From: a virus
DNA length: 64,000 bases
Strand: one strand, 5' to 3'
IMG/VR virus record: IMGVR_UViG_3300047281_000098
Location: 1 to 64,000 of that record
The notes below the pieces were generated by a model. That model did no database searches. It saw nothing but the letters and a program-made list of their open reading frames with translations, and was not told the DNA's origin. Shown one piece after another: positions 290 through 7,503 of this stretch. The stretch's first letter is position 1. Each line of letters opens with the position of its first letter. The position numbers and the translations under genes are program-made.

Positions 290-715
290 ATGTTCGAAAA
301 TAGAAAAGCCTTTTACGATTACGAAATACTCGAAGAGTACGAGTGTGGTATCATGCTCGAATCGTGGGAAGTAAAAGCCATTGCCAATAAAGTGTGCGCC
401 ATAGTAGGATCACACTGTAAGGTCCTGGACAGCGATGTATTTTTAATTGGAGCAAGTATGGGCTCATCCGAAAATGAGCAACAGCGTACTCGCAAGCTAT
501 TGCTACACCGTAAAGAAATCAATCGGCTCATTGGCAAAACAAGAGAAAAGGGCTTGACGCTGGTGCCTTTAAAGTTGTACAATAAGAATGGGAAGTTTAA
601 GTTATCAATTGGTGTTGCTCGTGGTAAGAAAGAATACGACAAGCGGGAAACTGATAAGAAGCGTGATATCGAATTAGAAACACGCAAGATTGTCAAAAGC
701 CAAAAGTTAGCATAA
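290..715 (+). CDS. smpB: SsrA-binding protein SmpB
   Basis: 141 residues, shorter than the roughly 160 of E. coli SmpB. The family signature is clear: GIMLESWEVKAI near residues 20-31, RKLLLHRKEINRLIGK near 68-83, and the basic tail KEYDKRETDKKRDIE near 115-130, which in known SmpB enters the empty mRNA channel. SmpB binds the tRNA-like domain of tmRNA and delivers it to stalled ribosomes. The partner RNA is encoded about 2.2 kb downstream (2896-3190). SmpB is normally a bacterial housekeeping gene, so its presence here with a tmRNA is notable. The first third is somewhat shorter than usual, but no key motif looks missing. Confidence 0.95.
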   Translation: MFENRKAFYDYEILEEYECGIMLESWEVKAIANKVCAIVGSHCKVLDSDVFLIGASMGSSENEQQRTRKLLLHRKEINRLIGKTREKGLTLVPLKLYNKNGKFKLSIGVARGKKEYDKRETDKKRDIELETRKIVKSQKLA

Positions 716-2662: not shown

Positions 2663-2856
2663 TATTAGAAGATGTAGAGCATATTTTTAAACCGCAGATT
2701 GATGAAGGTACAGACAAATTATACTTTATGTTAATTGATGGTGAACACAAGATGATTGAACGCCACGACGCAAATGATCTGGCAACGCTGCTACCTATGT
2801 TAGATGCGTTTCAATATATTGACACAGTAGAACGTATACCAAGATTTAGTAAATAA
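2659..2856 (+). CDS. hypothetical protein with MILEDV start
   Basis: 65 residues, sharing its first six residues and about 19 bases of DNA with the preceding gene but then diverging. It is the last gene of this overlapping run; the tmRNA promoter begins 5 bases after its stop. No domain recognised. Confidence 0.75.
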   Translation: MILEDVEHIFKPQIDEGTDKLYFMLIDGEHKMIERHDANDLATLLPMLDAFQYIDTVERIPRFSK

Positions 2857-2860
2857 ACGC

Positions 2861-2889
2861 TTGACAAGCAAGAAGAATAAGTATATAAT
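2861..2889 (+). promoter_or_regulatory. consensus sigma70 promoter of the tmRNA gene
   Basis: A perfect TTGACA (2861-2866), 17-base spacer and perfect TATAAT (2884-2889). Predicted start is near 2896. This is the strongest possible match to the sigma70 consensus, fitting a stable RNA. Immediately downstream comes the ATACTTAAACAGC segment found after many early promoters of this phage. Confidence 0.9.
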
Positions 2890-2895
2890 AAATAC

Positions 2896-3190
2896 TTAAA
2901 CAGCGTAAAGTAGGGACTGAAAAATATTCAAGAACCCGGTTCGAATCCGGGCAGGTCCACCAGAAAGTATATCATTACATACGGTCTATATAATGACAGG
3001 TATACTTCCTAATGGGCCTGAACTGGTTCTCGATTGGGTATCAAGTATGTGTTCTATCGCTCGGCAATGTAGAAGCCGTTAGGATTGGGGTAACCCGGTC
3101 AAAGAAGCAAAACAAAAATAAATGCAAATGACGAAAGTTACGCATTAGCAGCCTAAAAACTGCTTAGGGTAGTTATACCTCGTAACAGAA
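2896..3190 (+). ncRNA. ssrA: two-piece (circularly permuted) tmRNA
   Basis: The 3' acceptor piece comes first. A T-arm (stem CCCGG/CCGGG, loop TTCGAAT, 2935-2951) is followed by CAGGTCC, discriminator A and an encoded CCA (2952-2962). After a spacer of about 51 bases the 5' piece begins GGGCCTG at 3014. It pairs with CAGGTCC over 7 bp with a G3-U70 wobble, the alanine identity element. TTGGGTA (3034-3040) can pair with TATTCAA (2925-2931) as helix P2. The resume codon GCA at 3124 opens the tag ANDESYALAA, ending at TAA 3154-3156, and a possible pseudoknot follows. The order acceptor piece, loop, coding piece is that of permuted tmRNAs of alpha- and beta-proteobacteria and cyanobacteria. The exact processed ends are not determined. 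Confidence 0.93.
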
Positions 3191-3198
3191 AATAACAT

Positions 3199-3224
3199 AA
3201 AAAGGGTAATTAATTACCCTTTTT
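3199..3224 (+). terminator. rho-independent terminator after tmRNA
   Basis: A 26-base perfect palindrome, AAAAAGGGTAAT paired with ATTACCCTTTTT, ending in a T run. It lies about 40 bases after the last likely tmRNA helix and just before the next promoter. Being symmetric it could work in both directions. Confidence 0.9.
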
Positions 3225-3226
3225 AT

Positions 3227-3255
3227 TTGACTATCATCAGACGATGATATATAAT
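3227..3255 (+). promoter_or_regulatory. sigma70-type promoter of the barrel protein gene
   Basis: TTGACT (3227-3232), 17 bases, TATAAT (3250-3255). Its -35 box directly abuts the tmRNA terminator. A short inverted repeat (ATCATCAGACGATGAT, about 3233-3248) fills the spacer and could be an operator. Confidence 0.85.
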
Positions 3256-3299: not shown

Positions 3300-3743
3300 A
3301 TGAAAACTATCGTAATCGCATCGTTGATCGCATTGTCAGCAGTTACTGCCAGCGCAACTGAAATTGGTCTTACTACTACTCGTGACGGCGGGACATCCCG
3401 TGACGCATTTGGAGTTACAGTTGGACAAACATTCGGTAAGGTTGGCGTAACAGCTGGATTCGAACGCAATACCACTGGTGATGCTCAAGATCGCTACAGC
3501 GTAGTTGCCAGTACTGATCTTACTAAGTTTGGCCCAGTTACTGTGTCTGCTAAGACAGGCGCAGCATACTTGAACAACACCACTGGTGAAGATGGATATG
3601 CTCTTACTGTTGCTGTTGGAGCAAGTGTTCCAGTAACCAAGCAAGTTAGCTTTGTCGCCGAGTTGGGTCGTCAATACGGCCAAGCTCGTGTATCATCATT
3701 TGATGGTTCACGCATCACTGCTGGACTCAAGTACGCATTCTAA
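3300..3743 (+). CDS. exported outer-membrane beta-barrel-like protein
   Basis: 147 residues. The N-terminus MKTIVIASLIALSAVTASA is a signal peptide with a likely cleavage after ASA (residue 19). The rest is alternating polar/hydrophobic strands (for example VTVGQTFGKVGVTAGFER) and ends in LKYAF. A terminal Phe preceded by alternating hydrophobics is the usual outer-membrane assembly signal. The size fits an 8-strand barrel. It has its own promoter, an AAGGA-type ribosome-binding site and a strong terminator, so it is an independent, probably well-expressed unit. A role in surface change or superinfection exclusion is inference. Confidence 0.75.
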   Translation: MKTIVIASLIALSAVTASATEIGLTTTRDGGTSRDAFGVTVGQTFGKVGVTAGFERNTTGDAQDRYSVVASTDLTKFGPVTVSAKTGAAYLNNTTGEDGYALTVAVGASVPVTKQVSFVAELGRQYGQARVSSFDGSRITAGLKYAF

Positions 3744-6403: not shown

Positions 6404-6598
6404 ATGAACGAACGAATTAAAAAACTTGCTGACCAGGCTGGATACACAAAGGATATGTTTGGCATTGGGCATTGGGATATGCCAGAATGTCAAAAGTTCG
6501 CCGAGTTGATTGTAAGAGAATGTTTAGATATAGGTTACAAGCATAAGGCCTACGCATTGATGGGTGAGATTATGGAACATTTCGGAGTTGAAGAATGA
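6404..6598 (+). CDS. MNERI-family small protein
   Basis: 64 residues: MNERIKKLADQAGY, QKFAELIVREC, IMEHFGVEE. Its opening is close to that of the member at 8919, both reading LA-x-QAG. The standard GGAGTTGAAGAATGA end leads straight into the RNA ligase gene, so this small gene carries the ligase ribosome-binding site. Confidence 0.9.
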   Translation: MNERIKKLADQAGYTKDMFGIGHWDMPECQKFAELIVRECLDIGYKHKAYALMGEIMEHFGVEE

Positions 6599-7503
6599 AC
6601 AAAGATGAATTGAAAGAGTTTGTATTAGCTAACCCAAAGTTGGTGAACATGCGGTCGGCTGGCGAAGGCATCTATGTGCTAAAGTATTCCAAGCGTGTGT
6701 TCTACGATAACTTGTGGAATGACTACTTGGAAGAATGCCGCGGTACTATCGTGGACGCCGACTTCAATGTAGTGTCCCGTCCTTTCACTAAAATCTATAA
6801 CTACGGTGTGGAAGACAAGGCTCCTGTATTGTCTGACGACACTCCTGTAACTGCTTATCGTAAGGTAAACGGTTTCATGGTGGCAATGACATGGTACAAG
6901 GACGACATCCTGATCTCCACAACTGGCTCCACTGCTAACGACTATGTGGAGTATGCAAAAGAACTGATGGTAAAGCACCAGCCTTACGCTGATTGGCAAA
7001 TGGAACTGATTGCTACAAAAGGCATGACTCTGATGTTTGAATGCTGCCACCCAAGTGATCCACATATTGTACCAGAAGATGCAGGTATGTACTTCTTGGG
7101 TTACCGTGAAAACACTTGGGACTCCAAGGTAAAGATGTACGGTGTAAGTAAGTCCAAATGGGCACGTGACTATGCCATGAGCCACCTAAAGTGCGGATAT
7201 GGAGAATCTATCCAAACTACTGTTGGTGAGTTAGTAGCCGAGTCTAAGAAGGTTAAGCATGAAGGTTTTGTCTTCTACACAGAAGATGGCGTGTCTGCTA
7301 AGATCAAGAGCCCTTACTATCTCACTGCAAAGTGGGTGGCACGTAACCCACGTACCGACAAGCTGTTGACTAAAGAGTTCAAGGAACAAATTGACGAAGA
7401 GTACTACCCATTGCTGGAGCATATCCGTGCTAACATTGTCGAGTACACTGCAATGGATGAACAAGCTCGCCTTGCTTGGTGCAGAGAATTCTTCGCCAAA
7501 TAA
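6595..7503 (+). CDS. rnlA: T4 Rnl1-like RNA ligase
   Basis: 302 residues. Nucleotidyltransferase motif I is YRKVNG with the predicted adenylated Lys90; ECRG (residues 47-50) precedes it; motif IV-like HEGFVFY is near 224 and motif V-like SAKIKSP near 237. T4 Rnl1 (374 residues) seals tRNA broken by host anticodon nuclease, with polynucleotide kinase healing the ends; no kinase is seen in this window. Translation is coupled to the upstream MNERI gene by an ATGA overlap. In this region it fits an RNA-repair role beside tmRNA/SmpB. Assignment to the Rnl1-like group is by motif pattern. Confidence 0.88.
   Translation: MNKDELKEFVLANPKLVNMRSAGEGIYVLKYSKRVFYDNLWNDYLEECRGTIVDADFNVVSRPFTKIYNYGVEDKAPVLSDDTPVTAYRKVNGFMVAMTWYKDDILISTTGSTANDYVEYAKELMVKHQPYADWQMELIATKGMTLMFECCHPSDPHIVPEDAGMYFLGYRENTWDSKVKMYGVSKSKWARDYAMSHLKCGYGESIQTTVGELVAESKKVKHEGFVFYTEDGVSAKIKSPYYLTAKWVARNPRTDKLLTKEFKEQIDEEYYPLLEHIRANIVEYTAMDEQARLAWCREFFAK

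Follow-up and report, generated by a model that had tools for sequence, protein, structure and literature searches.

A permuted two-piece tmRNA gene and a linked smpB gene in a lineage of large phages

Introduction

Trans-translation requires two dedicated parts, and the tmRNAs of phages have usually been described alone, with the SmpB protein of the host assumed as partner. SmpB and tmRNA have both been reported from huge phages, and the available text of that report does not state that the two are linked (Al-Shayeb 2020, PMC7162821). The two-piece form of tmRNA is likewise on record from phages: the accessible part of one paper describes it in OM43 phage Melnitz and reports that, across 18,146 surveyed phage genomes, 53 of 133 unique tmRNAs were called two-piece, 50 of the 53 being marine or aquatic (PMC9004378). 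The initial annotation of the locus described here had been unsure how often phages carry a permuted tmRNA, and to that extent the accessible text of the same paper had already supplied examples.

The locus lies in a window of 64 kb, the first part of a 105,264-base IMG/VR virus record, which also encodes a terminase large subunit, an ssDNA-binding protein, a UvsX-like recombinase, a DnaB-like helicase and a thymidylate synthase. The terminase groups with those of jumbo phages; the closest isolate in this protein is Sinorhizobium phage Phosso (469 kb), at about 50% identity, the terminase of the PA5oct group (about 287 kb) is 48% identical, and contigs of 264 and 525 kb are among the relatives at 78-82% identity. 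Because of these phage genes and this kinship, and because no tyrosine integrase was found in the record, the record appears to be part of a jumbo-phage genome and not the edge of a prophage.

The permuted tmRNA gene

A single RNA gene was called in the window by ARAGORN, a permuted tmRNA at 2870-3247 on the + strand with the tag ANDESYALAA. The Rfam covariance search, which the initial annotation had named beforehand as the refuting test, returned strong matches over the full length of two models, RF01850 (beta_tmRNA) at 2847-3225 (95.8 bits, E 8.5e-28) and RF04321 (tmRNA_permuted) at 2902-3156 (94.7 bits, E 4.6e-17), both above the gathering cut-offs of 84 and 47 bits, respectively. Together with the ARAGORN call, these matches bear out the proposal of a phage-borne, permuted, two-piece tmRNA. 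The parts of the gene, which extends from promoter to terminator over about 2861-3226, are as follows:

2847..3225, + strand: whole permuted tmRNA (ssrA) gene, from the RF01850 match (model positions 1-331 of 331)
2861..2889, + strand: sigma-70 consensus promoter of the tmRNA gene, TTGACA-17-TATAAT (12/12 matches)
2902..2962, + strand: acceptor piece (5' strand of the P2 region, T arm, acceptor 3' strand CAGGTCC-A-CCA), from the RF04321 and RF01850 alignments and the sequence
2963..3013, + strand: hairpin-forming spacer of 51 nt, presumably removed on maturation, from the sequence and fold
3014..3196, + strand: coding piece (acceptor 5' strand, D-like region, P2, mRNA-like part), from the Rfam alignments and ARAGORN
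3124..3156, + strand: tag reading frame ANDESYALAA-stop (GCA...GCC TAA), from ARAGORN, with the same tag in relative L007
3197..3226, + strand: intrinsic terminator hairpin of the tmRNA gene (A-tract, stem, T-tract), from the sequence and fold

The order along the + strand is thus promoter, acceptor piece, spacer, coding piece with tag frame, and terminator, and it is the position of the acceptor piece upstream of the coding piece, with a spacer between them, that constitutes the permuted arrangement. The structural elements noted in the initial annotation are all present in the sequence. In the acceptor piece, a T stem (CCCGG/CCGGG) encloses TTCGAAT, and the acceptor 3' strand CAGGTCC (2952-2958) is followed by the discriminator A73 (2959) and an encoded CCA (2960-2962). 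The acceptor 5' strand GGGCCTG (3014-3020) pairs with CAGGTCC at seven of seven positions, including the G3-U70 alanine identity pair, and RNase P would be expected to cut the precursor directly before G3014. The tag frame, which also reads as first proposed, has a resume codon and a degradation-type ALAA end according to ARAGORN. Given the Rfam E-values and the absence from 2000 shuffles of the pattern formed by a T arm, CCA and a complementary strand further downstream, which occurs once in the window, chance structure is rejected as the source of the signal; the folding z-score against shuffled sequences is -4.7.

The claim that the gene has its own consensus promoter stands with one qualification. 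The match at 2861-2889 is perfect, but it is not special to the tmRNA gene, since exact TTGACA-N17-TATAAT promoters occur 16 times in the window, always on the + strand, against 0.01 expected by chance. The promoter of the tmRNA gene thus reflects a general use of host-type promoters by the phage, which weakens it as evidence particular to this gene. These perfect promoters lie at 2861, 4085, 5267, 7505, 11612, 33206 ... 61592 of the window, and several of the 16 have near-identical spacers (TTAAATCATTTTGGTGA).

The smpB gene and its surroundings

The window also contains an intact smpB gene, which was absent from the initial annotation:

290..715, + strand: smpB, encoding an SmpB tmRNA-binding protein of 141 aa with DKR motif and C-terminal tail, from PF01668, structures, and clade alignment and tree

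The protein matches PF01668 above cut-off (149 bits, E 1.2e-43, profile positions 2-142 of 143) and solved SmpB structures by phmmer (E 4e-32). Residues D117, K118 and R119 are invariant in the SmpB alignment and a basic C-terminal tail is present, both of which are features of SmpB.

In the window, 2.1 kb separates smpB from the tmRNA gene, and the interval (900-2860) is occupied by a small family of duplicated genes, seen as short ORFs whose starts are repeated (GAATGAACGAACGAATTAAAGAACTTGC, four copies). A cold-shock-domain protein is encoded just upstream of smpB (60-275), and a small secreted, outer-membrane-like protein directly after the tmRNA gene (3300-3743), its match to YfaZ being weak and below cut-off. 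A homologue of the latter follows the tmRNA gene directly in L103/L104 (39%); L009 also has one (58%), at another position. A T4-type RNA ligase 1 is encoded at 6595-7503 and also near the tmRNA gene in L009/L010 (64%), a placement that could possibly set RNA repair beside ribosome rescue.

The pair in related viruses

Four viral contigs (L007-L010) encode an SmpB that is 84-96% identical to that of the window, and each has a permuted tmRNA, lying straight downstream of smpB in L007, L009 and L010 and one ORF further in L008. A near-identical promoter precedes the tmRNA gene in L008, L009 and L010; L007 does not have this promoter, and there the tmRNA gene directly follows smpB. A wider scan added four records with SmpB at 65-70% identity (L103-L106), all with a permuted tmRNA in the same record. 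In L103-L105 smpB adjoins the tmRNA gene; in G023 about 15 kb separates the two. The tmRNA match is strong in the 369-kb record L105/G022 and the 385-kb record L106/G023. The tmRNAs of L103 and L104 fall below the Rfam cut-off but are structurally complete, with G3-U70 and CCA. In total, smpB and a permuted tmRNA occur together, and usually adjacent, in nine of nine records of the SmpB clade, or in seven distinct cases including the window once the near duplicates L009/L010 and L103/L104 are merged. In another two records (G025 and G026), a permuted tmRNA is accompanied by an SmpB from a different viral clade, and thus the combination probably has more than one origin.

The tmRNA is more widespread than the pair. 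A permuted tmRNA above cut-off was found in 11 of 19 searched records (five from the SmpB scan and 14 terminase relatives), and SmpB was absent from all 14 terminase relatives searched, whose records are partial. These counts suggest, as far as partial records allow, that the lineage has had the tmRNA for longer than SmpB, which occurs only in some of its branches. Since no SmpB was seen in the partial records of most terminase relatives that have the permuted tmRNA, host SmpB is presumably an adequate partner for the phage tmRNA.

The tag is identical (ANDESYALAA) in L007 and varies among the other relatives. Unusually long tags are predicted for the tmRNAs of L103 (9125-9595) and L261 (ANANVTSGVKMTVAKGFRFGGSKVAATEAAFA; ANNVSTEFASFDLSAFADAEVAFA). 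The tmRNA spacer of G009 seems to contain a second tRNA-like stretch (L296), and a freshwater-2 candidate RNA motif was found in L004 at 1333-1411 (record positions 65333-65411; 64.5 bits). Two tRNAs with anticodon CTA, in L105 (16403-16477) and L002 (3608-3683), would read TAG stops, and the terminase of the 385-kb record G023 has one in-frame TGA; stop-codon reassignment is a possible explanation of both.

Evolution and selection

In a 55-row tree a single clade (support 100/99), separate from the sampled bacterial SmpBs, unites the seven distinct phage proteins, all of which have lost about 7 residues from one loop. Neither the tmRNA nor SmpB identified the host: among the matches listed, the nearest bacterial SmpBs are 43-48% identical to the window protein and are spread over Betaproteobacteria and other phyla, and many sampled Betaproteobacteria have no permuted tmRNA above cut-off.

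Synonymous changes far exceed amino-acid changes between closely related phage SmpBs, with dN/dS of about 0.06 for the window and L007, 0.08 for the window and L009, 0.09 for L008 and L009, and 0.05, at a dS near saturation, for the window and L008. This excess indicates strong purifying selection on these proteins. Comparison of the tmRNAs likewise indicates that their helices are kept by compensatory change: at each of the acceptor pairs 4-7 the relatives use two or three different base pairs without any loss of complementarity, and there is no variation at pairs 1-3, among them G3-U70; the spacer ranges from 25 to 198 nt. The proposal that the gene is a full expression unit and not a remnant is supported by these changes and by the strong covariance matches; the gene is complete and likely expressed.

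Proposed function and alternatives

We consider it likely, judging from gene content and conservation, that the phage encodes a working trans-translation pair, consisting of a two-piece tmRNA and its own SmpB. The adjacency of smpB and the tmRNA gene in relatives suggests that these viruses supply the means of ribosome rescue themselves. Following established knowledge of tmRNA for the steps that would depend on the host, the gene would be transcribed by host RNA polymerase from the consensus promoter, and RNase P and other host nucleases would excise the spacer, so that the mature RNA would consist of two chains, the acceptor piece and the coding piece, joined through the acceptor stem and P2. 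The phage tmRNA would be charged by host alanyl-tRNA synthetase through G3-U70, and phage (or host) SmpB together with EF-Tu would bring it to ribosomes stalled on cleaved mRNA. Such a ribosome would then switch to the ANDESYALAA frame, stop and be recycled, and host proteases reading the LAA end would degrade the tagged fragment. The likely benefit would be that ribosomes are kept available while mRNA is heavily broken in infection, whether by host mRNA breakdown or by RNA-cutting defences. A stronger version, which we regard as possible but doubtful, is that the phage SmpB, with its shortened loop, and the phage tmRNA are matched to each other and form a self-contained rescue system, partly independent of the host and acting as a counter-defence against RNA-cutting host defences.

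A function mainly in tag delivery or competition, steering host proteins or ribosomes or outcompeting host tmRNA instead of rescuing the phage's own translation, has precedents: phage DS6A is reported to have a tmRNA-like RNA that lacks a tag and inhibits the tmRNA of the host (PMC11915505), and the accessible text of Buchholz et al. proposes selective degradation of host proteins (PMC9004378). The variation of tags among relatives fits such a role, but the window's tag frame is intact with an ALAA end as in bacterial tags, and the carriage of SmpB points to the full reaction, so that we judge this function improbable. It is far less probable still that smpB and ssrA are unselected passengers picked up from a host by chance, for example at a prophage attachment site in ssrA. 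Such an origin would draw on the common use of ssrA as an integration site and on the frequency with which prophage records begin with host smpB; a prophage boundary carrying host ssrA is nevertheless rejected in view of the missing tyrosine integrase, the completeness of the gene and the separate SmpB clade, and neither the compensatory changes, nor dN/dS below 0.1 between close relatives, nor the occurrence of the pair within phage contigs of 369 and 385 kb is what passengers would leave. That bacterial sequence was misbinned or misassembled into the viral record is barely credible: smpB and the tmRNA do sit at one end of the record, but the best bacterial SmpBs among the matches listed are only about 48% identical, and independent viral contigs have the same tmRNA beside an smpB whose product is 84-96% identical.

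The retention of smpB and a permuted tmRNA gene as linked neighbours in a lineage of very large phages suggests that the phage must guarantee ribosome rescue itself, and the two genes offer a clean pair for testing in a laboratory host.

Comparison with known systems

The two-piece tmRNA of Betaproteobacteria (RF01850/RF04321) shares with the window tmRNA its gene order, an acceptor stem with G3-U70, P2 and a tag of the form ANDE...ALAA, and is matched over its full length. The window tmRNA differs in being carried by a phage, in its spacer and 3' part, and in its tag, ANDESYALAA, as compared to ANDERFALAA in Thauera and Cupriavidus.

Melnitz and the other surveyed phages, mostly aquatic, likewise carry a permuted tmRNA on a phage. 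The Melnitz tmRNA is, however, of the alphaproteobacterial kind and is accompanied by a glutamine riboswitch, which Rfam did not find here, and the accessible text names smpB as a general partner and not as a Melnitz gene (PMC9004378). Among isolated phages, Sinorhizobium phage Phosso and Synechococcus phage BUCT-ZZ01 have a permuted tmRNA, and neither is among the best 40 of 66 SmpB-bearing phage records; the tmRNA of BUCT-ZZ01 (L002, 4730-5148; tag ANDETFSMALAA) is unannotated in its record. Conversely, three SmpB-bearing huge-phage records that were tested (LR756501, LR756502 and LR745206) gave no tmRNA above cut-off, LR756501 having a weak match of 344 nt that ARAGORN does not call.

Two-piece tmRNAs in phages, and SmpB and tmRNA each in huge phages, were therefore already known. 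A literature search, mostly of open-access papers, found no description of a phage lineage in which smpB is linked to a permuted tmRNA gene, and what is new by that search is the occurrence of the two as a linked, conserved module in a lineage of phages.
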